Of a stretch of DNA of 24,450 nucleotides, positions 381 to 12,562 are shown piece after piece. Source of the stretch: a virus. The notes under the pieces are model-generated. The model searched no databases, had not been told where the DNA came from, and worked only from the letters and a program-made list of their open reading frames with translations. The position numbers were made by a program, and so were the translations under genes. Numbering within the stretch: the stretch's first letter is position 1; each line of letters starts with the position of its first letter. The DNA lies in the IMG/VR virus record IMGVR_UViG_3300047562_001311, positions 1 to 24,450 of that record, one strand, 5' to 3'.

Positions 381-422
381 GGGAGCATGGCGGAATTGGT
401 ATACGCAGCGGACTTAAAATCC
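381..422 (+). other. Partial tRNA-Leu(UAA), probable phage attachment site (attP core)
   Basis: These 42 bases read as the 5' half of a leucine tRNA: acceptor strand GGGAGCA, then a D-arm with the class II pattern GGCGGAATTGGTA, then the anticodon arm GCGGA-CTTAAAA-TCC with anticodon UAA. The match breaks in the 3' side of the anticodon stem, where the next bases are CA instead of the GC or GT needed to close it. There is no variable arm, T-arm or 3' acceptor strand downstream, so this is not a working tRNA. Integrases often use tRNA genes with crossover near the anticodon loop. Cyanophage P-SSP7 is reported to carry a 42-bp stretch identical to its host's tRNA-Leu just downstream of its integrase. 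That parallel makes attP the best reading, although the host gene itself is not visible here. Confidence 0.75.
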
Positions 423-433
423 CAATTCAACCT

Positions 434-447
434 CTACAGCCCTGCAG
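434..447. promoter_or_regulatory. Recurrent imperfect palindrome, copy 1 (upstream of RNA polymerase)
   Basis: CTACAGCCCTGCAG fits the pattern CTRCAnnCCYGYAG shared with 3011-3024 (one mismatch), 7367-7380 and 12549-12562. This copy lies 11 bases after the tRNA-like segment and about 78 bases before the RNA polymerase start. It has outward dyad symmetry (CTRCA / TGYAG). It may be a phage promoter element, an operator for a dimeric regulator, or an RNA hairpin. Confidence 0.45.
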
Positions 448-496
448 AACATCCGCCAGCACTGAGTTTCCACCGTTACATCCGAGCTCTACAGGG

Positions 497-567
497 GTGT
501 GGTGGATAAATTGCGGAAAACGCAGTGTTTTCGGTGGCTGATGCACCCCGCATTTCGTCCACCACAC
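497..567. repeat. Extended inverted repeat spanning the RNA polymerase start
   Basis: GTGTGGTGGA (497-506) is exactly complementary to TCCACCACAC (558-567). After a symmetric 5-base gap on each side, TGCGG (512-516) pairs with CCGCA (548-552). Within the loop, GAAAAC (516-521) pairs with GTTTTC (527-532). The candidate start codons of the RNA polymerase gene (GTG 525 and GTG 534) lie inside this structure, so it could limit translation or serve as a protein-binding dyad. Confidence 0.55.
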
Positions 568-2945
568 ATCTGGCGGAGGAAAAGGCGCGGGAATTAGCGC
601 AGCGCAAGGCATCTGAGGAGCGCGCGCTGGTCATCCGCAGGAACCTGGTGGTTGCGGGGCGAGAGTCGGCCACGGAATACGGCCGGGGCCTGTTTAAGGA
701 GTACGGCGAGCGGGTCACCGACGCCCTCGATGCCCTGTTCGGCCGGGTGGTGCGGGGCGAGGCGATCGCGGGCCCTCACTACTGCGCGGTACCTGCCCTG
801 CTGGCCTTCAGCAGCAAAGGGCTGAGGCCCATCGCGGCCCTGGCCCTGGGCGTGGTGCTCGATCGGCTCAGTCAGCGGCGCTCCTACAGAGAGGTGGCGC
901 TGGCCATCGGCCGGGAGATTGAGGACGAGGCCAGGGCGCTGAAGATCGAGGCCAAGGACCGCGACCTGCTGCGGCTGCTGAAGAAGCGTGCGGCGGGGCG
1001 GCGCAAGGAAGTGGTGGGCAAGTGGGCCCTCGATCAGCTGCGCCTGGGGCTCGAGCCCTGGAGTAATCAAGACCGCTTCCACATCGGCGGCCTGCTGCTC
1101 GATCTGGTGGTGGCCAACACCGGCCTGGTGCGGGTGCTGCAGCAGGGGCGGCGCAGCCCATCGCTCGAGCCCACTCCGGAAGTGCTGGCACTGATCAAGG
1201 CCAACCCGCCACGGCCGATGCCGGTGCGCAGGCTGCCGATGCTGGTGGAGCCCAGGCCCTGGGCCGGGCTGCATGGCGGCGGCCACCTGGACAACAGATC
1301 CCCGCTGGTGGTGAGCCGCAAGCCGTTGGACCTGGCCTACCTGGAGGGGCGCGACATCAGCCAGCAGCTGCGGGTGGTGAACGCACTGCAGCGCCAGCAG
1401 CTGGTGGCTGACCCATGGATGGTCGACATCCAGCGCCAGGCATGGGACGCCAACATCCGCGGGCTGTTCCCCGTGCGCCGGGATCCGCTCACGCCGCCGC
1501 CCCAGCCGGAGCCCTCGGCTGACAAGAAGGAATGGGCCGAGTGGCACAAGCGCAAGGCGGAGGCCTGGAAAGACGAGGCCATCAACAAGGCGGCCCGGCT
1601 CAAGATTGAGGAATCGCTGCGGCAGGTGGAGGCGATCGGCGATCGCCCGGTGTGGTTTGCCTACGACCTGGACTTCCGCGGCCGGGTCTACAGCTCCAAC
1701 CGTTACGTCACCCACCAGGGCCCAGACCACGAGAAAGCGCTGATCTCATTGCAGGGTGTGCCCTGCGGTGAAGAGGGCTTCGGGTGGCTGCTCAAAGCAG
1801 CGGCCGGCCACTACGGGCTGGGCAAAGCCAAGTGGGGGGAGCGACTGGCATGGGGGAAGGACAGCCTCGACCTGCTGGTGGCCATCGCCGAGCACCCCCT
1901 TGAGCGGCTTGAGTTGTGGCGTGGGGCTGATGACCCGTGGCAGCTGCTGCAGGCCGCCCGCGCCGTGCGCCAGTGGCTCGAGGATCCAAGTCGGCCCATT
2001 GGCTGCCCGGTGCGCCTGGATCAGACGTGCTCAGGCGTTGGCATCGCAGCGGCGCTGCTGCGGGATAAGCGGCTGGCCCGGCTCACCAACCTGATCGGCA
2101 GCACCAGGGCCGACATCTATCAGTCAGTGGCCGACCGGGTGATCAAGATGCTGCGCCACGAGGTGGAGGCGGCCGGCGACGTGGCCGCCCGGCAGGCCGT
2201 GTTCTGGCTGGACTTTGGGATCGACCGCTCCCTGGCCAAGGGCCCAGTGATGACGAGCATTTATGGCGCCAGCCACCAGTCGCTGATGGACGGGCTGATC
2301 GCGGCGATCGAGGAGCGCAAAGGCCAGGCTGATCTGTGGCGCCTGCAGGGGGATGTGCTGGCCCCGGTCCGCTACATGGCCGGGTTCATGCGGCAGGCGC
2401 TGAAAGAAGAGATCGCGCCATGCCTGGCCCTGCAGGAGTGGCTGCGTGGCGTGTCGCGCAAGGTGGTGAGCAAGCAGCAGGCGATCGAGTGGACCTCGCC
2501 CATGGGCTGGCCCATGCGACTGGCGGCTGAACTGGGCGACACGGTGGCCAGCGGCACGGCGCTCACCAGTCGCCCCCGGCAGCGGGCCAGGCGAGAGGAG
2601 CACCCGGAGGGAGAGCTCAGCGCCAGGGCCACGAACAGGGGCATCACCGCAAACGCGATCCACTCGTTTGACGCGGCCTTCTGCCACTCGATTGTCTGCG
2701 GGGTTGAAGCACAAGGCGTTCAGATCTTGACGAATCACGACTGTTTCGCGGTGGCGCCCGAATTTGCAGCGTCTTTGCATCAGCGCCTGCACAGCGAGTT
2801 CAGGGAAATGTTCAAGGTCGACTGGCTACAGCTGATGAGCGATGAGATCGCTTGCCGTGCAAAGGTTCGCAAGTTGAGTCCTGCCCCGATCACGGGAGAC
2901 CTCTGCCCTGGTCAGGTGGGCACCAACCCGTACGCCTTTTCGTAG
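525..2945 (+). CDS. Single-subunit T7-type DNA-directed RNA polymerase (806 aa)
   Basis: This enzyme would transcribe phage genes from phage-specific promoters. The conserved T7-family blocks appear in order. DLDFRGRVYSS (around residue 380) matches the T7 motif near MDWRGRVYA. LDQTCSG (D499) matches FDGSCSG with metal-binding D537 of T7. AKGPVMTSIYG supplies the K631/Y639 equivalents (K572, Y580, correct 8-residue spacing). NHDCF (H738-D739) matches HDSF with the second metal ligand D812. The protein ends in NPYAFS, close to the FAFA foot of T7. Length is 806 against 883 in T7; the shortening is N-terminal, as usual for cyanophage homologues. No ATG is available: an in-frame TAA lies at 507-509, and GTG 525 (GGAAAA upstream) or GTG 534 are the options. 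The segment aligned with the T7 specificity loop (about residues 675-705) is very different from T7, so T7 promoters would not be expected. Confidence 0.95.
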   Translation: MFSVADAPRISSTTHLAEEKARELAQRKASEERALVIRRNLVVAGRESATEYGRGLFKEYGERVTDALDALFGRVVRGEAIAGPHYCAVPALLAFSSKGLRPIAALALGVVLDRLSQRRSYREVALAIGREIEDEARALKIEAKDRDLLRLLKKRAAGRRKEVVGKWALDQLRLGLEPWSNQDRFHIGGLLLDLVVANTGLVRVLQQGRRSPSLEPTPEVLALIKANPPRPMPVRRLPMLVEPRPWAGLHGGGHLDNRSPLVVSRKPLDLAYLEGRDISQQLRVVNALQRQQLVADPWMVDIQRQAWDANIRGLFPVRRDPLTPPPQPEPSADKKEWAEWHKRKAEAWKDEAINKAARLKIEESLRQVEAIGDRPVWFAYDLDFRGRVYSSNRYVTHQGPDHEKALISLQGVPCGEEGFGWLLKAAAGHYGLGKAKWGERLAWGKDSLDLLVAIAEHPLERLELWRGADDPWQLLQAARAVRQWLEDPSRPIGCPVRLDQTCSGVGIAAALLRDKRLARLTNLIGSTRADIYQSVADRVIKMLRHEVEAAGDVAARQAVFWLDFGIDRSLAKGPVMTSIYGASHQSLMDGLIAAIEERKGQADLWRLQGDVLAPVRYMAGFMRQALKEEIAPCLALQEWLRGVSRKVVSKQQAIEWTSPMGWPMRLAAELGDTVASGTALTSRPRQRARREEHPEGELSARATNRGITANAIHSFDAAFCHSIVCGVEAQGVQILTNHDCFAVAPEFAASLHQRLHSEFREMFKVDWLQLMSDEIACRAKVRKLSPAPITGDLCPGQVGTNPYAFS

Positions 2946-2953
2946 GAGTGTCG

Positions 2954-2966
2954 TAGGTGACACCTA
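2954..2966. promoter_or_regulatory. Perfect 13-bp palindrome, possible operator
   Basis: TAGGTGACACCTA is a perfect inverted repeat (6 + 1 + 6). It begins 9 bases after the RNA polymerase stop and ends 4 bases before a TTGACG -35-like box. The geometry suggests a binding site for a dimeric regulator controlling the promoter ahead of the SSB operon. No T-run follows, so it is not a terminator. Confidence 0.4.
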
Positions 2967-2970
2967 TTAG

Positions 2971-2999
2971 TTGACGACTAGGGGTGAGACGACTACGTT
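2971..2999 (+). promoter_or_regulatory. Putative sigma70-type promoter upstream of the SSB operon
   Basis: TTGACG (2971-2976, five of six consensus bases) is followed after exactly 17 bases by TACGTT (2994-2999, TAnnnT pattern). Transcription would begin about 20-25 bases before the SSB start codon. The direct repeat GACGACTA (2973-2980 and 2988-2995, period 15) overlaps both boxes. The -10 box is only a partial match, so this is a candidate for host-polymerase expression, not a proven promoter. Confidence 0.4.
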
Positions 3000-3010
3000 C
3001 CTCACGTCTA

Positions 3011-3024
3011 TTACAGACCTGTAG
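3011..3024. promoter_or_regulatory. Recurrent imperfect palindrome, copy 2 (upstream of SSB)
   Basis: TTACAGACCTGTAG fits CTRCAnnCCYGYAG with one change (T for the first C, which still allows a G-U pair). It is followed by AGCAA and the ATG at 3030, exactly as copy 4 at 12549-12562 is followed by AGCAA and its ATG. The two leaders share no good Shine-Dalgarno sequence, so the hairpin may affect translation, or the element may be a transcription signal. Confidence 0.5.
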
Positions 3025-3029
3025 AGCAA

Positions 3030-3659
3030 ATGCCGAAAGAGCTACTCGTGTCACCGCAAGGGGAACTGATGTGGGCCAAGGTGCTCCGCCCTGGCGTGGT
3101 GAACAAAGGCAAGGAATCAGAGAAGGAGCAGTGGTCGATTGACCTGCTGCTCAGCAAGGCCGACGCCGCGGCCCAGGCGTTCGTGAAAACCCTGAAGCAG
3201 GCCTTCGTCGACGCCCACGGCAGCGCTTCCAAGCCGGGGCCCAACGGCCTGCCGTTCAAGACCTACCTGGACCAGAACGGCGACGAAACCCAGCTGTGGC
3301 AGTTCGCTTTCAAGCGCAATGTCGTCACCAAGCGCGGCATCGAGCTGCCACCCCCTGCGGTGCAAGACGCCAAGGGCACGCCCTGGCCGCAAGACTTGCT
3401 GATCGGCAACGGCAGCACCGGCAAGGTGGCGTTCAGCACCTGGACCTGGACCAACCCTGAAGGGGGCAAGGGGCTGAGCCTGAACCTCGAGGCCGTGCGG
3501 GTGCTGCACCTGGTCGAATACAGCGCGCCGGACACCAGCGCCGCCTTTGGTGAGCCGGAGGAGGGCTACGTGCTGACCGGCAACGAGGCCCGCGTGGCGC
3601 CGCCGGAGCAGGACGCCGCCGCGGCCACCAGCTGGGACAGCGACGACATCCCCTTCTGA
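3030..3659 (+). CDS. Single-stranded DNA-binding protein, gp2.5-like (209 aa)
   Basis: It would coat single-stranded DNA during replication and recombination and recruit partners through its acidic tail. The N-terminal two thirds read as an OB-fold type beta-rich domain (WAKVLRPG, WSIDLLLSK, FAFKRNVVTKRG, KVAFSTWTWT, LSLNLEAVRVLHLVEY). A low-complexity linker follows, and the protein ends in DSDDIPF, nearly the same as the DDDIPF tail of bacterial SSB that contacts replication partners. Length is close to T7 gp2.5 (232). It is the first gene after RNA polymerase and heads a chain of overlapping genes. Its ATG has no clear Shine-Dalgarno, only AGAGCAA after an inverted repeat. The stop overlaps the next start as TGATG. 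Confidence 0.85.
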   Translation: MPKELLVSPQGELMWAKVLRPGVVNKGKESEKEQWSIDLLLSKADAAAQAFVKTLKQAFVDAHGSASKPGPNGLPFKTYLDQNGDETQLWQFAFKRNVVTKRGIELPPPAVQDAKGTPWPQDLLIGNGSTGKVAFSTWTWTNPEGGKGLSLNLEAVRVLHLVEYSAPDTSAAFGEPEEGYVLTGNEARVAPPEQDAAAATSWDSDDIPF

Positions 3660-4018
3660 TGCAGACCGCCGACTTCGAGCTCCGCGTCCCGCTGATGTCC
3701 AAGGCCAGGCCCCGCTCCCCCAGGGGTGGTGGCCGGCCCTACATGCCGCCTGCCTACATGAAGTGGAAGGCAACCGTGCGGGCGCTGCTGGCCGAGTGGT
3801 GGTGTGAGCCACCGCTGCAGCAAGTGAACTGCCTGGTGCTCACGTTCCGCGGGCCGGCCCGGGGTGACCTCGACAACCTGGCGGGCGCGGTGCTCGACAG
3901 CGGCAACGGCCTGGTGTGGGCCGACGACCGGGTGAGCGTGCTGCCTGCCATGGCGCTGCGCTTCACCCGGGCACCCAAAGACAAGCAATCGATCTATCTC
4001 AAGGTGATCTGGGAATGA
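3659..4018 (+). CDS. RusA-like Holliday junction endonuclease (119 aa)
   Basis: RusA-family enzymes cut four-way DNA junctions as dimers. Family marks are SKARPR near residue 14, YMPPAYMKWK (28-37), and the acidic core GDLDNL followed by WADD. The aspartates fall at residues 70, 72 and 89/90, matching the catalytic D70, D72 and D91 known for E. coli RusA, and the length (119) is typical. One oddity is that the residue matching the catalytic lysine K76 of E. coli RusA is glycine here (LDNLAG rather than LDNLxK). The gene sits where T7 has gene 3, an unrelated junction-resolving endonuclease, so it probably fills that role in recombination or debranching before packaging. The start overlaps the SSB stop (TGATG) and the end overlaps the next ATG. 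Confidence 0.85.
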   Translation: MQTADFELRVPLMSKARPRSPRGGGRPYMPPAYMKWKATVRALLAEWWCEPPLQQVNCLVLTFRGPARGDLDNLAGAVLDSGNGLVWADDRVSVLPAMALRFTRAPKDKQSIYLKVIWE

Positions 4019-4236
4019 ACAGCAGCTACCACGAGTCGAAAGGCCAGTTCTGCAGCGACTGCAGGTATGCGCACCCATTTAGCAATGACCATGAGCAGTA
4101 CAGCTGCCGGAGATATGCGCCAAGGCCTTTGCCGAGCAATGCCTTTGGTCATGTGGATGACCGCGTCACTTACTGGCCACTGGTTTTCTGCGAAGAGTGG
4201 TGCGGCGAATGGCGCTCGCGGGAGGACCGCGCATGA
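4015..4236 (+). CDS. Small cysteine-rich protein, possible zinc binder (73 aa)
   Basis: The frame is open further upstream, but the ATG at 4015 overlaps the RusA stop as ATGA, which matches the coupling used throughout this operon. The protein has cysteines at 13, 16, 31, 59 and 63, including CSDC and CEEWC pairs, together with H20, H26 and H46. This pattern suits a small zinc-stabilised fold. It is rich in aromatic residues and arginine. I do not recognise a family, and no enzyme motif is visible. Its position next to an SSB, a RusA-like nuclease and a zinc-ribbon protein suggests a DNA or RNA metabolism role, but that is only context. Confidence 0.7.
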   Translation: MNSSYHESKGQFCSDCRYAHPFSNDHEQYSCRRYAPRPLPSNAFGHVDDRVTYWPLVFCEEWCGEWRSREDRA

Positions 4237-4820
4237 ATTGCCCCAAGTGCGGCGGCACCAGCAGCAGGATCCTGGACACGATCAGGGTCCGCGAGGGCCT
4301 GCGCCGGCACCGCATCTGCAACGGCAAGCGCTGCCGTCACAAGTTCGCCACCCTCGAGCGCGTTGAGCAGTGGGATCCAGGCATCCAGTCCTATGTGGCG
4401 GTGGCGCCTGATCAGCCGGCGCCCCTGGCCCCGGTGATCCAGCTGCAGCAGGAGCGTCCGGTTGCCGCGGTCAAAAACCAGCGCTACCTGGTTGACGCAG
4501 ACAAGAGCGACTTTCTCACTGTCTGCGACGAGGCCAGGCCACTGCTTTGCGAGTGGTGGAACGTCAGCCGCAAGAGCAAGCACGGCTCAAAGGCCGCATG
4601 GACCGAGGCCGCCTGGCTTTCGAGCGTGGCCCGTGTCGCCAAGCTGCCCGCCTGGCAGCAGGTGCTGCTGGCCAGGGCCGGCGTTGAGCACGGCTGGCAG
4701 GCGCTCAAGCCCGAATACATGAAGGACGAGCTCACGGCCCCCACGGCCCAGGGCCGCCCGATGCCCAAAGACCCGGCGATGCTCGCCGCCCTTGAGCAAT
4801 GGCCAAGCCAAACAGCCTGA
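4233..4820 (+). CDS. NrdR-like zinc-ribbon protein, unknown C-terminal domain (195 aa)
   Basis: The start is the ATG at 4233 (ATGA overlap with the previous stop), with GGAGGA six bases upstream; an earlier GTG at 4197 is open but less likely. Residues 1-45 resemble the zinc ribbon of the ribonucleotide reductase repressor NrdR: C3-P-K-C6, then ILDTIRVREGLRRHRIC29 and C34, then KFATLERVE, compared with FTTYERVE in NrdR. The ATP-cone that follows in true NrdR is absent. Residues about 85-180 form a tryptophan-rich helical region (CEWWNVSRK, AAWTEAAWLSSVARVAKLPAWQQ) of a kind often seen at the ends of phage replication proteins. It may therefore be a DNA-binding replication or regulatory factor. 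The function is inferred, not shown. Confidence 0.7.
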   Translation: MNCPKCGGTSSRILDTIRVREGLRRHRICNGKRCRHKFATLERVEQWDPGIQSYVAVAPDQPAPLAPVIQLQQERPVAAVKNQRYLVDADKSDFLTVCDEARPLLCEWWNVSRKSKHGSKAAWTEAAWLSSVARVAKLPAWQQVLLARAGVEHGWQALKPEYMKDELTAPTAQGRPMPKDPAMLAALEQWPSQTA

Positions 4821-5326
4821 CGCCAGAGACGTTTCTGGCGGTCGCCGAAATGATCGCGGCCCAGCTGCGGATCAAGGAGGCCGACCGATGGAGCCCGCAC
4901 ATCTGCCGGCTCAAGTTCCACAGCTTCACCTCCGAGTTCCCGGAGATCAGCGAGACCCAGTTCATGTGGGCCGCTGAGCAGTGGATTCAGGGCCTCGAGC
5001 CCAACACATTCAAGCGCTACCCCACCTGGAAAGAACTGATGGCACCGCTGTATCGAACAGAGAACGGCATGGCGAACAGAAGCTGGGGCTTCCGCGAGGA
5101 GTTGCCCCCGTTCTGCAGGCCAACCGTTGGCCAGCTGGCGATGCTGCCGACCGCAAAGCGATCACTGGTCTCTGCGCCGGACCCGCACAACAGCGAGGCG
5201 TACCTGCCGTTCACCACAACGGAGCAGCCGCTGCTGCCGCCTGCTGCCGAGGATTGCCCCCTCACCGAGGAGAAGTGGCAGGACTACCTGCAGTGGGCAC
5301 AAGAGGAAGCCGCGCGTGAGCAGTGA
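4799..5326 (+). CDS. Hypothetical protein in replication operon (175 aa)
   Basis: The ATG at 4799 lies inside the end of the preceding gene (22-base overlap). The N-terminal 110 residues are helical with regularly spaced aromatics (FLAVAEMIAAQLRI, FHSFTSEFPEISETQFMWAAEQW, YPTWKELMAPLY), followed by a proline-rich stretch and an acidic C-terminal helix (WQDYLQWAQEEAA). The N-terminal pattern loosely recalls small phage helicase-loader proteins such as G39P, but I cannot confirm that. It stands in the part of the genome where T7 relatives have primase-helicase and polymerase genes. A loader that recruits host replication machinery would make sense there. No catalytic motif is seen. Confidence 0.65.
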   Translation: MAKPNSLTPETFLAVAEMIAAQLRIKEADRWSPHICRLKFHSFTSEFPEISETQFMWAAEQWIQGLEPNTFKRYPTWKELMAPLYRTENGMANRSWGFREELPPFCRPTVGQLAMLPTAKRSLVSAPDPHNSEAYLPFTTTEQPLLPPAAEDCPLTEEKWQDYLQWAQEEAAREQ

Positions 5327-5523
5327 TGGAACCACTGTTCGACAAGCACGAACTGCAGTCAATCCTCGAGCGGGGCCTTGTGACCGGCAAGTGGTCAACG
5401 CTGCAATTCAACAAAAAGGGGCGGGACGTGATCCTGCCCAGCCCTGATTTCCTGGCGCAGCACCCGCAGTTTCAGGAGATGGATTTCAGGGACATGGAGG
5501 CCTTTCGCAAGCACCACGGATGA
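5326..5523 (+). CDS. Small hypothetical protein (65 aa)
   Basis: The ATG at 5326 overlaps the preceding stop as TGATG; a GTG three bases earlier is also open. The protein starts MEPLFDKHELQSILERG, has a short beta-like core (WSTLQF, RDVILPS) and a charged helical tail (FRDMEAFRKHHG). There is no recognised motif. Tight coupling on both sides supports it as a real gene. Confidence 0.65.
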   Translation: MEPLFDKHELQSILERGLVTGKWSTLQFNKKGRDVILPSPDFLAQHPQFQEMDFRDMEAFRKHHG

Positions 5524-5744
5524 GCTGGACCAGCGACTACGAACCCGGCGACGAGATCAAGGCTTATCACCAGGGCAACTGGAAGCGCGGAGCCGTGGTC
5601 TCAAAGCGCAAGAGCAGCCTTGCCGTCTTTCTTGGAAAGTTTGGCCACATCAACGTCCACGACCCTCGCAACATCCAGCCATGGCAATCCGAAAAGGAGA
5701 AGAACCAATCGACGTCTCTCGAGCCGCCGTCGTTCGACTTTTGA
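5520..5744 (+). CDS. Small SH3/Tudor-like hypothetical protein (74 aa)
   Basis: The start overlaps the previous stop as ATGA. The first 55 residues read like a small beta barrel of the SH3/Tudor type: YEPGDEIKAYHQGNWKRGAV, then LAVFLGKFGHINVHDPRNIQPW. The glycine-aspartate turn, the central GNWKRGAVV strand and the closing DPRNIQPW strand resemble KOW or Tudor modules that bind protein or RNA. The tail is a charged, disordered segment ending FDF. The 3' end overlaps a possible further small gene in another frame. The fold call is by eye only. Confidence 0.65.
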   Translation: MSWTSDYEPGDEIKAYHQGNWKRGAVVSKRKSSLAVFLGKFGHINVHDPRNIQPWQSEKEKNQSTSLEPPSFDF

Positions 5745-5854
5745 GCCGAGCCCGTAAACACCACTCCGACTGCGTCGAGCGCTCCTACGCGCAGATGTGG
5801 TGGGAGGGATACATCCGCTGCTGCGAGCACATGCTCGAGATGGAGAACGAGTGA
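5681..5854 (+). CDS. Very small hypothetical gene overlapping its neighbour (57 aa)
   Basis: This frame fills what would otherwise be a 109-base hole between the genes at 5520-5744 and 5854-6078. From ATG 5681 it gives 57 residues and overlaps the upstream gene by 64 bases. A TTG at 5741 would give 37 residues and form a TTGA overlap with the upstream stop, matching the coupling style of the operon. The end, MWWEGYIRCCEHMLEMENE, looks like a real amphipathic helix, and its stop overlaps the next ATG as TGATG. No Shine-Dalgarno precedes either start. The gene is probably real; the start is uncertain. Confidence 0.5.
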   Translation: MAIRKGEEPIDVSRAAVVRLLSRARKHHSDCVERSYAQMWWEGYIRCCEHMLEMENE

Positions 5855-6078
5855 TGAAACTCTCCCCTGATCACATCCCGCCCGGATGGGCCGAGCCAAA
5901 CCTTGGCCCTGGCGTCAGCAGGCCCAAGGCTGATGAGCGCACCCGCGACTACCGGCTGTGGGTCAGGCGTCCAGACATGCCCCCTATGCGTGTGCTGATG
6001 CCGGCGCCAACCAAGGCCAAGGCAATCAGCTACTGCAAAAACCGCTGGCCAAACGCAACCATTGAGGTGATCGAATGA
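5854..6078 (+). CDS. Small hypothetical protein (74 aa)
   Basis: The frame is open from a GTG at 5797, but the ATG at 5854 overlaps the preceding stop (TGATG) and is preferred. The protein has an N-terminal proline-rich stretch (DHIPPGWAEPNLGPG), then a strand-helix-strand core: YRLWVRRPDMPPMRVLMPAP, TKAKAISYCKNRWPNA, TIEVIE. This may be a compact alpha/beta fold of the kind seen in many small phage proteins. Function not recognised. Confidence 0.65.
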   Translation: MKLSPDHIPPGWAEPNLGPGVSRPKADERTRDYRLWVRRPDMPPMRVLMPAPTKAKAISYCKNRWPNATIEVIE

Positions 6079-6275
6079 CTCTGCTCAATGACCTGACCGA
6101 GCTCTACTGGAGCCTGGGCGAATACAGCATCGATGACCGCCGGCGCATGAAGGCGGTGGTGCATGAGATCAGCCAGCGCATCCGCACCTGGGCGCCCGAC
6201 AAGGGACAGGCCCCCATTTGCCACCTGGCCATCAACGAGGTGGCCGATCAACTCATTAGGGAGACGGAAGGGTGA
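6075..6275 (+). CDS. Small helical hypothetical protein (66 aa)
   Basis: The ATG at 6075 overlaps the previous stop (ATGA), with a good Shine-Dalgarno, GAGGTGAT, seven to eight bases ahead inside the upstream gene. The sequence is almost wholly helical: LLNDLTELYWSLGEYS, DDRRRMKAVVHEISQRIRTW, CHLAINEVADQLIRETE. It could be a small helical bundle or dimer. No motif recognised. Confidence 0.65.
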   Translation: MTLLNDLTELYWSLGEYSIDDRRRMKAVVHEISQRIRTWAPDKGQAPICHLAINEVADQLIRETEG

Positions 6276-6481
6276 CGCACCGACCCAGCTTTATGGCCAT
6301 CACCAGCACCGGCGGCTACATCGGTCGCGTGTTCTGGCAAAACAGCGGCATCCATCCAGATTTCCCTCGATGGGGCGAGATTCACTTCATCCCAAATCCT
6401 GTGCTGCACTCCCCCTTTGGCTTGTGGGCTGGCACGTTCCCTGTCATTCGGCAGATCATCAACTGGAGGTTTCATGGCTGA
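6272..6481 (+). CDS. Small hypothetical protein, GTG start (69 aa)
   Basis: A GTG at 6272 overlaps the preceding stop as GTGA and has GGAAGG just upstream; ATG 6293 is an alternative that would remove seven residues. The protein is rich in aromatics and glycine (ITSTGGYIGRVFWQNSG, WGEIHFIPNP, FGLWAGTFPVIRQIINWRF), which suggests a small beta-rich domain. There is no known motif. The stop lies inside the start of the next gene (8-base overlap). Confidence 0.55.
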   Translation: MTHRPSFMAITSTGGYIGRVFWQNSGIHPDFPRWGEIHFIPNPVLHSPFGLWAGTFPVIRQIINWRFHG

Positions 6482-6623
6482 CCCCAAGATCGAACAGCGC
6501 CGCCAGGACTACCTCGAGTGGCTCTATCAGCAATCAGGCCGCACCTGCAGCACCTACACCGGGTCGTATCAGGAGCGGCTCAAGGAGCTGGTTGAGCGGG
6601 ACATGCAGGAGGCCGGGCTGTGA
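6474..6623 (+). CDS. Very small hypothetical protein (49 aa)
   Basis: The ATG at 6474 is preceded by GGAGG (6465-6469) and overlaps the end of the upstream gene by 8 bases. The start is set by this site, although the frame is open from 6417. The 49 residues form a charged helical peptide with a short loop: KIEQRRQDYLEWLYQQSG, then ERLKELVERDMQEAGL. Its stop overlaps the GTG start of the exonuclease gene (GTGA). It may be a small partner of the exonuclease, but that is inferred only from position. Confidence 0.65.
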   Translation: MADPKIEQRRQDYLEWLYQQSGRTCSTYTGSYQERLKELVERDMQEAGL

Positions 6624-7360
6624 AACTCCTCATCGACGCCGAGGTCTACCTGTTCCGCTCCGCCACCGCAGCGGAATGGGAGGCCGAGTGGGATGACGGC
6701 GACTGGACCTACCTGTGCCGGCACGCCGATGCGCAGGCCAACTTCCAGGAAGTGATCGGCGACATCCGCGAGGGAGCGCCCGATCACAAGCCGGTGCTCG
6801 TGTTCAGCGACGGCATCAGCTTCCGCTACGGCATCTGGCCGCAGTACAAGGCCAACCGCAAGAAGTACAAACGGCCCGCCGGCTACCGGCAGCTGATCGA
6901 ATGGGTCAGCAAGGCCGCCGCCGTGCGCGACTGGCAGGTGGTCAAGCTCCCCGACATCGAGGGCGACGACGCCCTGGGCGTCCTCTACGAGGAGGGCGAC
7001 GTGATTGCCTCGATCGACAAGGACATGCTCACCCTGCCGGGCCTGCACCTGCGGGACGGCGAAATCCTTTCAGTCAGCAGGCTTGAGGCTGATCGCAACT
7101 TCTATCGGCAGGCGTTGACCGGCGATGCCACTGACAACTACCCGGGCTGCCCTGGCTACGGGCCGGTGACAGCAGAAAGGGCATTGGCCAACTGCTCAAC
7201 AGAACTGGAGATGTGGCAGTGCGTTGTTGCGGCCTACGGCAAGAAGGAGCTCAGCATGAGCTACGCGATCGCTCAGGCCAGATGCGCTCGCATCTTGCGG
7301 GCTGGTGAGTACGACTTGAAAACTCACACTCCCCTGCTATGGAGCCCGCCGGTAGCCTGA
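6620..7360 (+). CDS. 5'-3' exonuclease, T7 gp6-like (246 aa)
   Basis: A member of the FEN/5'-nuclease superfamily, which removes primers and degrades host DNA in T7 relatives. The acidic metal-binding pattern is present: D6 in LLIDAE, EGDDALG (D116, D117), SIDKDM (D133, D135), and TGDATDNYPGCPGYG (D169, D172), which merges with the helix-hairpin-helix-like DNA-binding loop of the family. Length is 246 against about 300 for T7 gp6. GTG 6620 overlaps the previous stop as GTGA and has AGGAGG seven bases upstream, a strong start. It closes the chain of overlapping genes begun by SSB. In T7-like cyanophages a DNA polymerase gene normally precedes it; none is present here. Confidence 0.9.
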   Translation: MKLLIDAEVYLFRSATAAEWEAEWDDGDWTYLCRHADAQANFQEVIGDIREGAPDHKPVLVFSDGISFRYGIWPQYKANRKKYKRPAGYRQLIEWVSKAAAVRDWQVVKLPDIEGDDALGVLYEEGDVIASIDKDMLTLPGLHLRDGEILSVSRLEADRNFYRQALTGDATDNYPGCPGYGPVTAERALANCSTELEMWQCVVAAYGKKELSMSYAIAQARCARILRAGEYDLKTHTPLLWSPPVA

Positions 7361-7366
7361 GTTCAT

Positions 7367-7380
7367 CTGCACTCCTGTAG
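7367..7380. promoter_or_regulatory. Recurrent imperfect palindrome, copy 3 (exonuclease / virion gene boundary)
   Basis: CTGCACTCCTGTAG matches CTRCAnnCCYGYAG at every fixed position. It lies in the 19-base gap after the exonuclease stop, and its last base is the first base of the GTG start at 7380. It marks the switch from DNA-metabolism genes to virion genes, a typical place for a class III-type phage promoter. Confidence 0.45.
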
Positions 7381-7571
7381 TGGTTGCGCTTCCTCCGATC
7401 TCTGAACGCCTGGTTAGCGCCCTGGCGCAGCAGTTCCCAGATCGAGCGCCAGATCTGCAGTGGGCCGAAAAAGAGGTCTGGTTCCGTGCTGGCCAGGCTT
7501 CCGTGGTTCGCTACCTGGCCACCGTCAAGCAGGAACAATTCGAGAAAGGCATTGACCTGGAGGTGGACTGA
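7380..7571 (+). CDS. Small hypothetical protein, GTG start (63 aa)
   Basis: The only usable start after the in-frame stop at 7353-7355 is GTG 7380; it has no Shine-Dalgarno and touches the palindrome just upstream. The protein has two helices around a short strand (PPISERLVSALAQQFPDRAPDL, KEVWFRAGQASVVRYLATVKQEQFE). Small genes of similar size often sit between exonuclease and portal in T7-like cyanophages. Function unknown. The stop overlaps the next ATG (TGATG). Confidence 0.6.
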   Translation: MVALPPISERLVSALAQQFPDRAPDLQWAEKEVWFRAGQASVVRYLATVKQEQFEKGIDLEVD

Positions 7572-8122
7572 TGTGCGTCGGAGGTGGCGGCGGAAGCGTT
7601 CCGGCAGCGCGCATCACTGACCCGCTTGAGGCGACGAAGCAGTACAGCCGGGCGACCCGGCGCGTGAAAAGGGTCAAGGCAAAGAAGGGCAGCATGGATG
7701 CTGCGACCTACAACGCCAAGCTCGATAAGGCGCGTCAAGCCAAGAAGTCCGTTGGCAAGAAGTACAAAAACAACCGTGCCAACAAGGTTGAGAACGACAC
7801 TTTGTTCATGCTGGACAAGGTCAAGGATCTGCTCAGCAACGACAACCCGCTGAACACGGCATTTGATGCCCTGAATCGGTCCAACCTGGGCCTGCAGGAC
7901 ACCCTGACCCAGTTGAGCGATTTGGCCACGATGGCGGCCGACAGCCAGCAGCTGCTGCAGGAAGACGCCATGCGGCAGAGCCTGCTGAGAGGAGCGCCGC
8001 CACCAGAGAAGAACGCAGAGACCATCGTGGCCGGCCGTAACCGCGACGGGTACGAGCGCCCTGGTCGCACGCGGCAGGCGTTGCGGATCGACCGCACCCC
8101 GTCCAGCACTCTCGCCATCTAG
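7571..8122 (+). CDS. Basic virion-associated protein, gp6.7/gp7.3-like (183 aa)
   Basis: The ATG overlaps the previous stop, with GGAGGT upstream. The protein opens MCVGGGGGS, a Cys-Gly-rich start common in phage structural proteins. A strongly basic region follows (RRVKRVKAKKG, KARQAKKSVGKKYKNN), then a helical middle (LNRSNLGLQDTLTQLSDLATMAADSQQLLQ), and a tail ending RTPSSTLAI. The tail resembles the K/R-rich, SLSV-type end of T7 gp7.3, a small virion protein needed for tail assembly and ejected with DNA, and it recurs in the next gene. Position just before the portal also fits T7 6.7/7.3. The family call is moderate because these proteins diverge quickly. Confidence 0.6.
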   Translation: MCVGGGGGSVPAARITDPLEATKQYSRATRRVKRVKAKKGSMDAATYNAKLDKARQAKKSVGKKYKNNRANKVENDTLFMLDKVKDLLSNDNPLNTAFDALNRSNLGLQDTLTQLSDLATMAADSQQLLQEDAMRQSLLRGAPPPEKNAETIVAGRNRDGYERPGRTRQALRIDRTPSSTLAI

Positions 8123-8134
8123 GAGGACCGACTC

Positions 8135-8869
8135 ATGGCAAACAAAGCAAAGAAGAAGATTCAAAAAGCTCTTCGGGGAAACAACAAGCTGAACCAGAGC
8201 GAAATCAGAAACCTGCAGAACGCTGGGATCTCGATGAGCAAGATCCTGACCGTTGCGGCCAAGAACAACGCGACGATTGCGAACAATGCCCAGCAGGCTT
8301 ACAACATCGACCAGAACAAAAAAGGCGTGATCAGCTACACGCCCCCTACGGCCGCGGCAGCGCCAAAGCCAGGCAGCGGCTGGGCTGTCACGGGGTCGCA
8401 GTCTGCTCAGACCAGAACGGTAAACGGCGGCGTCTCCACCAGTCAGGCGCCCACTTACACCTACATGGCGCCCACCAAAGTGAAGGTGACTCAGGCCCCT
8501 GCGCCTGCCCCTGCGCCTGCTGCGGCACCTGCCCCTGCCACTGCGGCAACCCAGAACTGGAGCGATTCAGTCGACGCCGGCACTCAAGCCATGGTCGACG
8601 CGATCAACCAGTCGGTCCTCGACAACCAGGCAAATCAACAGCTCTACATGGGAATGATCAGCGACATAGTGAGCCAGATGGCGGCAGTGCAGCAGCAGCC
8701 GCAGCAGGTGGCGACTCCCTACGCCGTGACCACGTCCACTAACGCGCCAGCCCAGGGCGCGCAGCTGACGCAGGCGATCTCCCCACGCAAGAAGAACCTC
8801 AATACCTCGCTGGCCATCGCGCCGCTTGAAACAGCGAGCGCTGGCACCGGCCTCAACATCCCCGTCTGA
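8135..8869 (+). CDS. Ala/Pro/Gln-rich small virion protein, gp7.3-like (244 aa)
   Basis: ATG 8135 has a textbook AGGAGG (8121-8126) that overlaps the previous stop codon. Parts, in order: a basic helical N-terminus (ANKAKKKIQKALRGNNKLNQ); a Thr/Ser-rich region; an APAPAPAPAAAPAPA linker; a helical segment (TQAMVDAINQSVLDNQANQQ); a Gln-rich stretch; and a tail with KKNLNTSLAI then GTGLNIPV. The SLAI and G-LNI endings echo T7 gp7.3 (SLSV then GGGINI). It is probably a head-tail or ejected virion protein with an extended linker. The next gene, the portal, starts two bases after its stop. Confidence 0.6.
   Translation: MANKAKKKIQKALRGNNKLNQSEIRNLQNAGISMSKILTVAAKNNATIANNAQQAYNIDQNKKGVISYTPPTAAAAPKPGSGWAVTGSQSAQTRTVNGGVSTSQAPTYTYMAPTKVKVTQAPAPAPAPAAAPAPATAATQNWSDSVDAGTQAMVDAINQSVLDNQANQQLYMGMISDIVSQMAAVQQQPQQVATPYAVTTSTNAPAQGAQLTQAISPRKKNLNTSLAIAPLETASAGTGLNIPV
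8495..8539 (+). repeat. 12-base tandem repeat coding for Ala-Pro linker
   Basis: The unit GCCCCTGCGCCT occurs twice exactly (8495-8506, 8507-8518), followed by a degenerate copy (8519-8530) and a partial one. It encodes the Ala-Pro run of the virion protein, a stiff extended linker, and is a place where length could vary by slippage. Confidence 0.8.
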
Positions 8870-8871
8870 CC

Positions 8872-10491
8872 ATGGCCACCGCAGCACAGCGCTATCGCGC
8901 GCTTGAGTCCGATCGCAACTACTACCTGGAGCGCGGGAGGGAGGCGGCGCGCTTGACCCTGCCGTACCTGGTCCCCTCCAGCAACGAGCCGACCAAGGGC
9001 AACAAGGAGGTGTTCCCGCTGCCGTGGAATGGCATCGGCGCCAGGGGCGTGCTCAACCTTGCCAGCCGGATGCTGCTGGCCCTGCTGCCGCCGACGCAGA
9101 GCTTCTTCCGTTTCACCCTCAATGAAATGGAGATGATCCGGCAGAACATCAGCCTGGATCAGAAATCTGAGTTCGATTCAGCGCTGGCAAAGATGGAGCA
9201 GGAAGTGCTCCGCTCCATCGAGTCGACCAACGACCGCGTCGCCTTTCACGAAGCCCTGCTCTGGTTGATCGTCTGCGGGAACGTCTTGCTCTACGTGGGC
9301 AAGGAAGGGCTCAGGGTTCACCACCTGAACCGCTATGTCTGCTGCCGTGACCCCATGGGCAACCCCCTCGAGGTGGTCACTTGCGAGGAGCTGGCAGTGA
9401 ATGTGCTGCCGCCCGAGATCAAGGCGCTGCTCGAGGACGACAAGGACGACCTTGTCGGCAAGCTCGCCAACGACGACTACGACGAGATCGGCGAGTACGA
9501 CCAGACAGTGAAGATCTACACCCACGTTCGATGGGAGAAGACTCGCGTTGTCTGGCACCAAGAGGTGAAGGGCAAGGAGATCCCGGGCAGCCAAGGCGAG
9601 GCCCCCATGGACTCCAACCCCTGGATGCCGTTGCGGATGTCGCGGGTCGATGGCCAGCCGTACGGCGTTGGCTACGTGGAGAGCGCTGCCCTGGCTGACC
9701 TGAAGACCGCCGAGGCGCTGAGCCAGGCCGTGTCAGAGGGCTCCCTGGCCAGTGCTGCCATTCGTTTCCTGGTGCGCCCCAACGGCGTGACCAAGGCCAA
9801 GGCCCTGGCAGAGGCTGCCAATGGCGCCTTTGTCGTTGGCGACATCAACGACGTCCAGGCCCTGCAGGTGCAGAAGGGCGGCGACATGCAGGTGGCCATG
9901 GCCGGCCTGGCGCGGGTGGAGGCCCGCCTCAGCCAGGCGTTCATGCTCGCCGACGTGCGCGACTCTGAGCGCACCACGGCCGAGGAGGTCCGGCTGCAGG
10001 CGCTGCAGATCGAGAACAGCCTGGGGTCGATCTACTCAATCCTGACTACCGAGTTTCAGACGCCCTACGTCAGCCGCAAGCTGGATCTACTGATCCGCCA
10101 AGGGAAGCTCGAGCCCCTGCCCAAGGATCTGATCCGCCCCGTCGTTTCTGTCGGCCTGGCCGCTGTCGGCCGCAGCAATGACCTGGAGAAGGTGGTGCGC
10201 TTCGTGAGCACTATCGCCGAGCTAGGCAATGCCATCGGCCAGCAGGAAGTGATGATGCGGGTCAACCCGTCAGAGCTGATCCGCCGACTGGCTGCCTCGA
10301 TGGGCGTCGACACGGTTGGCCTGATCAAGACCGACCAGGAAGTGGCCGCTGAGCGGGAGCAGGCGCAACAGCTTGCGCTCGCTCAGCAGGCCATGGCATC
10401 GCCGATGGCCGACCCACAGAAGCAGGCCCAAGCCGCTGCCATCGAGCAGCAGATGGCAGCTAACCAACCCACCGAACCACAAGCCGCATGA
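8872..10491 (+). CDS. Portal (head-tail connector) protein, T7 gp8-like (539 aa)
   Basis: Twelve copies would form the ring at the capsid vertex through which DNA is packaged and ejected. Length (539) matches T7 gp8 (536). The N-terminus has the family pattern: helical RYRALESDRNYYLERGREAA, then LTLPYLVP, then GIGARGVLNLASRMLLALLPP followed by FFRFTLNE. The centre carries typical portal text such as LLIVCGNVLLYVGKEG-type strands and PWMPLRMSRVDGQPYGVGYVE. The C-terminal part is helical (EARLSQAFMLADVRDSERTTAEEVR, the conserved crown-stem region) and ends in a Gln/Ala-rich tail. It lies between the gp7.3-like gene and the scaffold, which overlaps its stop as ATGA. Confidence 0.93.
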   Translation: MATAAQRYRALESDRNYYLERGREAARLTLPYLVPSSNEPTKGNKEVFPLPWNGIGARGVLNLASRMLLALLPPTQSFFRFTLNEMEMIRQNISLDQKSEFDSALAKMEQEVLRSIESTNDRVAFHEALLWLIVCGNVLLYVGKEGLRVHHLNRYVCCRDPMGNPLEVVTCEELAVNVLPPEIKALLEDDKDDLVGKLANDDYDEIGEYDQTVKIYTHVRWEKTRVVWHQEVKGKEIPGSQGEAPMDSNPWMPLRMSRVDGQPYGVGYVESAALADLKTAEALSQAVSEGSLASAAIRFLVRPNGVTKAKALAEAANGAFVVGDINDVQALQVQKGGDMQVAMAGLARVEARLSQAFMLADVRDSERTTAEEVRLQALQIENSLGSIYSILTTEFQTPYVSRKLDLLIRQGKLEPLPKDLIRPVVSVGLAAVGRSNDLEKVVRFVSTIAELGNAIGQQEVMMRVNPSELIRRLAASMGVDTVGLIKTDQEVAAEREQAQQLALAQQAMASPMADPQKQAQAAAIEQQMAANQPTEPQAA

Positions 10492-11348
10492 CTGCCACCC
10501 CCGTGGACAACAGCCTCAGCAACGCCGAGGCGATGAATGAAACGCCGGTCGCGCCTGGCCAAGAGGAGCTCCTCAACGAGTTCCTGGCCGAGCGCGATGG
10601 CGAGCAGCAAGCTCAGGAGACCGAGAAGATCCTGGGCAAGTTCAACAGTGCTGAGGAGCTGGCCAAGGCTTACCAGGAGCTGGAGAAAAAGCTGGGCCAG
10701 CCCAAGGAGCAACCCAGCGACTCGCCCGTCTCACAGCCCAAGGCTTACACCCGTGACGAAGGCGTCAAGGAGTACGGCGAGTTCCTGGCCGACAAGTTCG
10801 AGGAGGCTGAGTTCAACCCCTACGAAATGGCCGCGGCCTACGAGGCTGGCCAGGACGTCGAGCCCTTTATGGAGAGGCTTGAATCGGTCGGCATCCCCCG
10901 CTCGATTGTCGAGCGCTACCTCGAGGGCAGTTACGAGAGCGATTCCGCTGAGCTCAGCGCAGACGACACGGCGGAACTGAAAGGCCTGGTCGGAGGGGAT
11001 GAGCAGTTCCAGCAGTTGTCGGCCTGGGTGAAGGACAACGTCCCCAAGGATGAGATCGACGAGTACAACGCTGTCGTCGCCAGCGGCAACAAGGACGCGA
11101 TCAGGTGGGCGCTGCGCGCCATGCAGGCCAGGGCCACCCAGGGCTCAGCCCCTGCGCGGCCGCCCCTGAAGGAGCCAGAGCTGGTGGGCAGTGGCCGCCC
11201 GCCCGGTGGCGGCAAGACCTTTGAGTCAAAGGCTCAGGTGCTCGAGGCGATGAACAAGCTGAACGGCAAAGGCCAACGCTTGTACGACGTTGATGAGGCT
11301 TACCGGGCGCAAGTGATTCGGATGCTGGATGCCTCCGATGTTTTCTAG
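10488..11348 (+). CDS. Capsid assembly scaffolding protein, gp9-like (286 aa)
   Basis: Scaffolding proteins guide procapsid assembly and then leave. This one is acidic and helical, with FNSAEELAKAYQELEKKLGQ near residue 55 (a motif common in podovirus scaffolds), a long acidic middle, and a C-terminal basic helix-turn region (FESKAQVLEAMNKLNGKGQR, then QVIRMLDASDVF) of the kind that binds capsid subunits. The length is close to T7 gp9 (307). Its place between portal and major capsid is diagnostic. The ATG at 10488 overlaps the portal stop (ATGA), so it is translated by coupling. Confidence 0.88.
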   Translation: MTATPVDNSLSNAEAMNETPVAPGQEELLNEFLAERDGEQQAQETEKILGKFNSAEELAKAYQELEKKLGQPKEQPSDSPVSQPKAYTRDEGVKEYGEFLADKFEEAEFNPYEMAAAYEAGQDVEPFMERLESVGIPRSIVERYLEGSYESDSAELSADDTAELKGLVGGDEQFQQLSAWVKDNVPKDEIDEYNAVVASGNKDAIRWALRAMQARATQGSAPARPPLKEPELVGSGRPPGGGKTFESKAQVLEAMNKLNGKGQRLYDVDEAYRAQVIRMLDASDVF

Positions 11349-11460
11349 GTACATTCAGTTCAGGCGATCTCTACGCCCCTGGAACTGAACGGGCCTTCCT
11401 AGGGAGACAACCCGGTGCAGAGGGGAAGAAGCGGCCTTCTGACTTCTTCTGTGAAACACC
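11349..11460 (+). promoter_or_regulatory. Structured leader of the capsid gene
   Basis: This 112-base gap holds two hairpins. TTCAGTTCAGG (11354-11364) pairs with CCTGGAACTGAA (11378-11389) with one bulged base, and GAAGAAG (11425-11431) pairs with CTTCTTC (11443-11449). The first loop contains CTCTACGCCCCTGG, a weak relative of the recurrent palindrome. No T-run follows either stem, and no good Shine-Dalgarno precedes the capsid ATG. It may contain a phage promoter and RNA-processing or stabilising stems, as expected before the most highly expressed gene. Confidence 0.5.
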
Positions 11461-12471
11461 ATGGCTACCCCTCCTGATGCCGCGCTACAGCGGCTTGGTC
11501 AAATTAAGGGCACGGGTGATGACCGCGCCCTATTCCTCAAGCTCGGCGCCGCCGAGGTGCTCGATGCCTTCGAGCGCACCACTGTGTTCAAGGGCAAGAC
11601 CCGCGAGCGCAACATCAAAGGCGGGAAATCGGTTGCCTTCCCCATCACGGGCAAGATGGCAGCTCGCTACCACTCCCCCGGGGTGCCAATCCTGGGTGAA
11701 GGCAACAACCCTTCCGACCTGAACGAGCGCCTGATCGAGCTCGATGGCTTGATGATCGCCGATGCCGCCGTGGCGGAGATCGACGAGCTGATGGCCTACT
11801 ACGACGTGCGCCAGATCTACACCACTGAGCTGGGCCGCGCCCTGGCTTACGAGTACGACAAGCGCGTCGCTCGCATCCTGTTCGCTGCTGCCTCCAACGT
11901 CACCGAGCCCCTGGGCAAAGCCGGCAACGCCGGCCGCATCGGTGCCGGCAAGACCCTGTCTGCTGGCTATGCCGCTGCCACTAACCAGGCCAAGGGCGAC
12001 GAGCTGGTGGATGCGATCTTTGCTGCTCGCGTCAACTTCGACAAGAAGGACGTGCCCGTTGACGGCATGTATGCAGTCTTCTCCCCTGAGGAGTACTACT
12101 ACCTGACCCAGTCTTCGCGCGCGATCAACGCCGACTTCAACGGCGGCGGTGGCGGCAACGGCACCATCGCCAGCGGCAAAACCCTGCAGGTGGCTGGCAT
12201 CCCCATCCTGATGTCCAACCACGTCACCCAGGCGGCGTACACCAACGTCACCGGCGACAAGAACACCGACTACCAGCAGGATCTGTCGAAGTGCCGCGGC
12301 CTGGTGTTCAACAAGGAGGCCGCTGGCGTGGTGACTCTGATGAGCCCCTCTCTGCAGATCACCAGCGGTGACTGGAATGTTCAGATGCAGGCAACCCTGA
12401 TGGTGGCTCGCCAAGCCATCGGCATGGGCGTGCTCCGCGCTGAAGCCGCCTACAAGATCGTGGTCCCCTAG
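11461..12471 (+). CDS. Major capsid protein, T7 gp10A-like (336 aa)
   Basis: This is the main shell protein of the head, with the HK97-like fold of the T7 family. Length is 336 against 345 in T7 gp10A. Family features include FKGKTRERNIKGGKSVAFP (N-arm and E-loop area), the ELDGLMIADAAVAEIDELM and YYDVRQIYTTELGRALAYEYD helices, DGMYAVFSPEEYYYLTQSSRAINADFN, and a closing MVARQAIGMGVLRAEAAYKI. It follows the scaffold and is followed by an intrinsic terminator, as in T7. I saw no slippery site near the end that would make a 10B-type minor form. It has its own leader and no clear Shine-Dalgarno. Confidence 0.94.
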   Translation: MATPPDAALQRLGQIKGTGDDRALFLKLGAAEVLDAFERTTVFKGKTRERNIKGGKSVAFPITGKMAARYHSPGVPILGEGNNPSDLNERLIELDGLMIADAAVAEIDELMAYYDVRQIYTTELGRALAYEYDKRVARILFAAASNVTEPLGKAGNAGRIGAGKTLSAGYAAATNQAKGDELVDAIFAARVNFDKKDVPVDGMYAVFSPEEYYYLTQSSRAINADFNGGGGGNGTIASGKTLQVAGIPILMSNHVTQAAYTNVTGDKNTDYQQDLSKCRGLVFNKEAAGVVTLMSPSLQITSGDWNVQMQATLMVARQAIGMGVLRAEAAYKIVVP

Positions 12472-12499
12472 GATCCGATCCAAGAGTGGAATCACGGGG

Positions 12500-12527
12500 G
12501 GGGTCGGCGTCAGCTGGCCCCTTTTTT
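12500..12527 (+). terminator. Intrinsic terminator after the capsid gene
   Basis: A 9-bp stem with two G-U pairs is formed by 12500-12508 (GGGGTCGGC) and 12513-12521 (GCTGGCCCC) around the loop GTCA, followed directly by six T (12522-12527). A run of eight G (12496-12503) leads into it. The place matches T-phi of T7, which lies just after gene 10 and partly ends transcription so that capsid mRNA exceeds tail mRNA. Confidence 0.85.
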
Positions 12528-12548
12528 GTGCGCCTCGTACGATTAGGA

Positions 12549-12562
12549 CTGCAGCCCCGCAG
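12549..12562. promoter_or_regulatory. Recurrent imperfect palindrome, copy 4 (upstream of tail tube A)
   Basis: CTGCAGCCCCGCAG matches CTRCAnnCCYGYAG throughout and is followed by AGCAA and ATG at 12568, with the same spacing and bases as the copy before SSB. It lies downstream of the capsid terminator, where a new promoter for tail genes would be useful. Confidence 0.5.

Follow-up and report, generated by a model that had tools for sequence, protein, structure and literature searches.

A dyad element conserved at operon starts in a lineage of MarR- and integrase-encoding T7-like phages, and a candidate regulator that may read it

The analysed fragment and its lineage

The DNA analysed here (hereafter the window) is an incomplete IMG/VR virus record of 24,450 bases, which carries genes for a T7-type RNA polymerase (RNAP), portal, capsid and tail tube. 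Its closest named relative is the Synechococcus phage S-SRP02, an Autographiviridae phage from a freshwater lake (PMC8790148), and the window virus is probably a freshwater T7-like phage with a cyanobacterial host. A marR-type gene co-occurs with an integrase gene in every relative examined, mostly just before the RNAP gene; in S38C3 they are located elsewhere. The marR gene is absent from the window, since this 24.5-kb fragment does not reach it.

Other repetitive or structured sequences were also seen in the lineage. In S-SRP02 (L004), AACAACCACCACC-like runs are repeated in several intergenic gaps. Most relatives share a long, strongly conserved hairpin, GGGAGAGCCCTTCTGCC...GGTGGGAGGGCTCTC, in front of the large terminase gene (upstream of terL, L004 7469-9277, minus strand).

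Copies of the dyad in the window

The dyad has the form CTNCA-N4-TGNAG and a length of about 14-16 bp. The preliminary description of this DNA had listed four plus-strand copies, the positions of which were confirmed. Copy A (434-447, CTACAGCCCTGCAG, an exact match) lies upstream of the RNAP gene and is conserved in relatives. The second copy (3011-3024, TTACAGACCTGTAG, one mismatch) precedes the SSB gene (3030), and the third (7367-7380, CTGCACTCCTGTAG, exact) belongs to the first virion-side gene, whose GTG start at position 7380 overlaps the last base of the dyad; in relatives the dyad at this gene is conserved as CTGCAGNCCTGTAG. The fourth copy (12549-12562, CTGCAGCCCCGCAG, exact) is located before the tail tube A gene (12568), and like the SSB copy it is followed by AGCAAATG, in agreement with the identical downstream sequence noticed earlier for these two copies. 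A fifth copy, absent from the earlier list, was found on the minus strand at 489-502 (copy B, CCACACCCCTGTAG), 55 bp from copy A.

The weak copy that had been suspected before the major capsid gene (11371-11384, plus strand, CTACGCCCCTGGAA) is real, as better copies, CTACACCCCCGTAA or CTGCACNNGTGCAA, occupy the same place in relatives. The RNAP, SSB, virion, capsid and tail copies all have one orientation, along transcription, and copy B is reversed. No equally good copy had been noticed inside genes, and for the window this holds: with the window matrix, its genic sites score at most 12.2 and the five best copies at least 16.5. The window gave no Rfam match, and no earlier description of the dyad motif was found in the literature searched.

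The capsid mRNA leader contains, in addition, a conserved stem-loop-like element, GGGCCTCCYTAGGGAGAYACCC (window 11388-11416). Nearly all capsid upstream regions of the lineage have it, even where protein identity is as low as about 48%, and it has no Rfam match at the gathering threshold.

Occurrence in held-out genomes

Exact matches to the pattern number three in the window, compared with a mean of 0.06 (maximum 1) in 100 dinucleotide shuffles, a contrast that overstates the surprise, since the pattern was fitted to these very copies, so that held-out data matter more. When up to two mismatches are allowed, the window count of 26 is not unusual (18.9 expected). With a matrix built from window-clade sites, intergenic positions rank first in the window (7 of the top 10, P=1e-9). 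Neither the genic nor the shuffled control refutes the motif. For these intergenic tests annotated or curated gene coordinates were used, greedy ORF calling being unreliable.

Applied unchanged to complete relatives, the pattern was found at five exact places in G001 and six in G002, and all 11 matches are at or adjoining operon starts (early region, RNAP, SSB, g7380, TTA, the tail-fibre gene and a holin-like ORF). In four more distant genomes the window-clade matrix gave an enrichment of intergenic hits (P between 1e-5 and 2e-3). Furthermore, a gapped-word count with no preset motif revealed TGCA-N4-TGCA in 7 of the 22 gaps of S38C3, the shuffle maximum being 5. The held-out matches in G001 and G002 bear out the proposal of a genuine regulatory element at operon starts. 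The element is kept across the lineage of T7-like phages with MarR and integrase; the dyad and a MarR protein are both present in all 15 genomes compared.

Symmetry of the dyad and differences between clades

The arms of the dyad are symmetric beyond what random pairing of columns produces (fraction 0.0004-0.0014). In the S-SRP02 clade, the right arm matches in 32 of 33 sites picked by their left arm alone, and the centre is free. In S-SRP02 itself the consensus TCTSCAC-NN-GTGSAGA is a near-perfect palindrome, and dyads precede the early region, RNAP (two copies), SSB, the first virion gene, capsid, tail tube A, the tail-fibre gene and the holin-like ORF. The window-clade consensus CTRCANNCCYGYAG has a one-sided CC, and all its forward copies point the same way.

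The left arms are CTACA/CTGCA and the right arms CTACA/CTACG in the window clade, and the S-SRP02 clade uses CTGCA/CTCCA for either arm. The preferences at positions 3 and 12, which are 9 bp apart, shift jointly from one clade to the other: A/T is preferred in the window clade and G/C in the S-SRP02 clade. Among the sites of the latter clade the two positions vary independently, with 20 GC combinations observed where the column frequencies predict 19.8, a result that speaks against RNA pairing and in favour of two equal protein subunits. The half-site spacing, about one helical turn, fits a MarR-family palindrome.

The 55-bp pair next to the putative attP

Upstream of the RNAP gene, the putative attP core (410-422, plus strand) corresponds to a tRNA-Leu anticodon stem-loop, GGACTTAAAATCC, and is embedded in a tRNA-Leu 5' half at about 386-422; ARAGORN detected no whole tRNA in the window. 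P-SSP7 and S-TIP37 integrate at tRNA-Leu, and the putative attP of the window lies in tRNA-Leu like theirs (PMC8776855). Copy A starts 11 bp to the right of the core, and copy B follows exactly 55 bp further on.

This geometry is conserved. In 21 of 26 mutually diverged regions upstream of RNAP, the best or tied-best spacing of the pair is exactly 55 bp, and the mean number of mismatches at this spacing is 2.77, compared with 7.14 (sd 0.60) over all spacings. Reading by eye revealed a 55-bp pair with weaker copies in a further lineage (L159). Across lineages, the distance between the att core and dyad A stays at about 11 bp, irrespective of the tRNA gene involved. No sigma70-like promoter was enriched between A and B.

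In some relatives other tRNA pieces replace tRNA-Leu upstream of RNAP at the same distance from dyad A (L117-L118 in G008, L098 in G014 and L104 in G018), among them a 5' half with a CAT anticodon and a reversed piece resembling tRNA-Tyr. The integration target was thus switched while the geometry of the site stayed. After integration at window positions 386-422, the promoter sequence of the host tRNA would lead towards the phage RNAP gene.

No such pair was found near integrase genes without an adjacent RNAP gene. Among other marR-int-RNAP phages a spacing in the 50s is not general, and a repeat pair was seen only in LUZ100 (56 bp). There, the 11-mer ACTATCCACTG, which differs from the dyad, is present as a direct repeat (L193 3938 and 3994) beginning 10 bp to the right of the tRNA core.

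Host-type promoter elements upstream of the dyads

Before SSB, sigma70-like elements were found on the plus strand at 2971-2999, namely TTGACG (2971-2976) and TACGTT (2994-2999) separated by a 17-bp spacer. The arrangement TTGNNN-17-TANNNT is conserved in all six diverged SSB upstream regions. These elements are below the strict consensus threshold, and a strict sigma70 scan of the window returned no promoter. At tail tube A, the -10-like hexamer TACGAT (12538-12543, plus strand) ends exactly 5 bp before the dyad, a gap preserved in 14 of 14 diverged representatives. For the capsid the corresponding gap is 16 bp in 8 of 12, and at the tail-fibre gene the hexamer is also at a fixed distance from the dyad. 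Overall, -10-like hexamers before dyads have a mean score of 4.17 versus 2.42 (sd 0.25). The dyads thus overlap sigma70-like -10 elements or follow them closely, and the inferred start points would coincide with the dyad or immediately precede it.

Between the capsid and tail tube A genes, a terminator-like GC hairpin with a T run (12498-12527, plus strand) is present in all relatives; it was not picked up by the stem/loop scan. At 84 tail tube A loci, the terminator is followed by TANNAT, a five-base gap, the dyad and the start codon.

The MarR protein and a second palindrome

The MarR protein of the lineage gives Pfam MarR matches below the curated cut-off and is homologous to pMarR of P-SSP7 (37-38% identity). 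An AlphaFold model of the 105-aa protein reached a pLDDT of 89 with an alignment of 37 sequences (47 with four sequences) and matches MarR structures, including DNA complexes. According to the model, residues 51-61 would form the recognition helix. Proteins with NAS in this helix occur together with CTACA/TGTAG arms, and those with NST, NGS or NSS with CTGCA/CTCCA arms. On the core-gene tree this association is a single event, and thus it supports a link between MarR and the dyad without proving it.

At least two further DNA-binding proteins are present in the relatives, the divergent winged-helix gene product p013 and the Arc-like protein p017. The gene for p013 has no match in S37C6 and S31C1, and p017 matches were found in only 8 of 15 genomes. 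Moreover, S-SRP02 and relatives contain a second palindrome, ACTCCTAGGAGT, at the starts of p013, marR and SSB (L004 10056-10081, 13597-13606 and 18906-18936); its copy before SSB in the window is decayed. This palindrome could be MarR's own operator instead of the dyad. At the marR operon both elements occur, dyads having been found upstream of it in S31C1, S38C3, G021 and G001.

What the dyad may be

We consider an operator for a dimeric phage regulator, most likely the MarR-type protein encoded beside the integrase, to be the best explanation of the dyad, and we hold it with moderate confidence. The dyad itself, its distribution over operon starts, the fixed pair and the conservation are observed; that a protein binds the element, that this protein is MarR and what the sign of its effect is, we infer. 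A homodimeric regulator of the MarR-type winged-helix class would bind CTNCA-N4-TGNAG operators that overlap the start region of each main phage operon or follow it closely, and from this position it would block or help the host RNA polymerase. As the operators are at the start regions, the protein would switch the main operons together. The two copies 55 bp apart, between attP and the RNAP gene, could be occupied by two dimers acting jointly, and this pair would govern the master polymerase gene and perhaps recombination at attP as well. The operator reading, which the preliminary description had offered as an alternative in the form of a site for a lysogeny-type repressor, is now the stronger one, given the symmetric half-site rule, the free centre and the 55-bp pair beside attP. 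Against it we count the one-sided CC and the uniform forward orientation in the window clade, as a promoter would have, as well as the weak sigma70 elements and the presence of ACTCCTAGGAGT as an alternative MarR site.

A more far-reaching form of the model can be put forward only tentatively. P2 Cox and 186 Apl are dual regulator-excision factors. If one MarR-type protein reads the dyad both at the attP pair and at the main operons, a similar dual logic would exist in T7-like phages, with integration, the phage RNA polymerase and late promoters driven by the host polymerase all under one regulator; we regard this as conceivable but rather doubtful.

A phage promoter, the reading named first in the preliminary description, is the main rival; it is on balance less likely, though a serious candidate. 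The dyad would then be recognized by the single-subunit phage RNA polymerase, which would initiate at the final G of the motif or immediately after it. In favour of this, copies do lie upstream of middle and late genes, their distribution over RNAP, SSB, first virion gene, capsid, tail tube and tail fibre parallels that of the LUZ100 promoters (PMC10134795), no other repeated motif was found in the intergenic regions of the window, the forward copies are co-oriented, and their oriented core CCYGYA(G/A) resembles positions -7 to -2 of the Syn5 promoter ATTGGGCACCCGTAA (PMC3950665). However, a promoter is expected to be asymmetric and strongly conserved, like the invariant non-palindromic sequence shared by LUZ100 promoters, whereas the arms of the dyad follow a symmetric rule in each clade and its centre is free in the S-SRP02 clade. 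Copies are also found in the early region, at the marR operon and, reversed, next to RNAP, and the window matrix does not recover the known Syn5 promoters. The specificity loop of the polymerase differs strongly between G001/G002 and S31C1/S37C6 (ALTARPRQRSRRE versus LYGTKISSN), yet the motif is alike, which may also speak against a promoter. If the dyad is a phage promoter after all, it would represent a new polymerase-promoter pair.

A dimeric regulator other than MarR (such as p013, p017 or a host factor) is improbable as the reader. The further DNA-binding proteins of the relatives, together with the possibility that ACTCCTAGGAGT near marR is the MarR operator, speak for it, but neither p013 nor p017 shares the occurrence of MarR and the dyad in every genome compared, and for a host factor a change of half-site preference with the phage clade is not expected. 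We think it quite improbable that the integrase or an excision factor uses the attP-side pair as arm-type sites, the operon-start copies being look-alikes or serving a dual Cox/Apl-like protein. The constant succession of core, about 11 bp, A, 55 bp and B in lineages using different tRNA genes would suit such sites, as would the similarly placed LUZ100 repeat; however, the operon-start copies are too regular for look-alikes, and both the lack of pairs near integrase genes without an adjacent RNAP gene and the limited spread of the 50s spacing argue against it. The least probable reading by far is that mRNAs carry the dyad as a 5'-terminal hairpin acting on stability or translation, as had been suggested on account of poor Shine-Dalgarno sites. 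These sites are indeed poor, the start codons are only a few bases away from the dyad, and three of the four copies can fold weakly, but copy 1 does not fold, paired cells are not above those of shuffles (58/500), positions 3 and 12 are unpaired in 15 of 40 sites and mismatched arms are common. Since there are no compensatory changes beyond chance between the arms, we rejected the hairpin.

Comparison with known systems

T7-like cyanophages carry integrases and integrate, and stable lysogens did not form (PMC8776855). The dyad may bear on how their lytic programme is held or released. With a putative genome-wide operator, a pair of copies exactly 55 bp apart in the interval from attP to the polymerase gene, and MarR as the candidate reader, the system lends itself to testing.

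For LUZ100, eight phage promoters were mapped (PMC10134795), and seven of the eight annotated ones share the invariant 12-mer ATTACCACACAG. For temperate T7-like phages, MarR was proposed to bind sites flanking the promoter upstream of RNAP (PMC10134795, citing Boeckman et al. 2022). This proposed MarR-linked control of lysogeny resembles the system described here: the gene order marR-int-RNAP is the same, and a paired site is found in the same interval. It differs in that here the dyad is also present at many other operon starts, the spacing of the pair is exactly 55 bp and no promoter is evident between the two copies.

P-SSP7 pMarR, which is homologous to the MarR proteins of the lineage, binds downstream of the start site of the host rne promoter and contacts the host RNA polymerase (PMC9692554). 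This position is like that of the dyad relative to the -10-like hexamers; the pMarR site is in the host genome, whereas the dyads are in the phage genome. Neither an enriched TGCA-N4-TGCA dyad at the operon starts of P-SSP7 nor a clear enrichment at those of S-TIP37 was found. Two pelagiphages have single exact TGCA-N4-TGCA copies beside the att core, and HTVC019P has one before SSB. The Syn5 promoter, which includes CCCGTAA, is short and GC-rich, and its CCCGTA resembles the right half of window-clade copies, but it is not palindromic, has two genome copies and is missed by the window matrix (PMC3950665).

One small winged-helix protein acting at promoters and at attP, in the manner of P2 Cox or 186 Apl, would fit the location of the dyads, with the difference that many more operon sites are present here.
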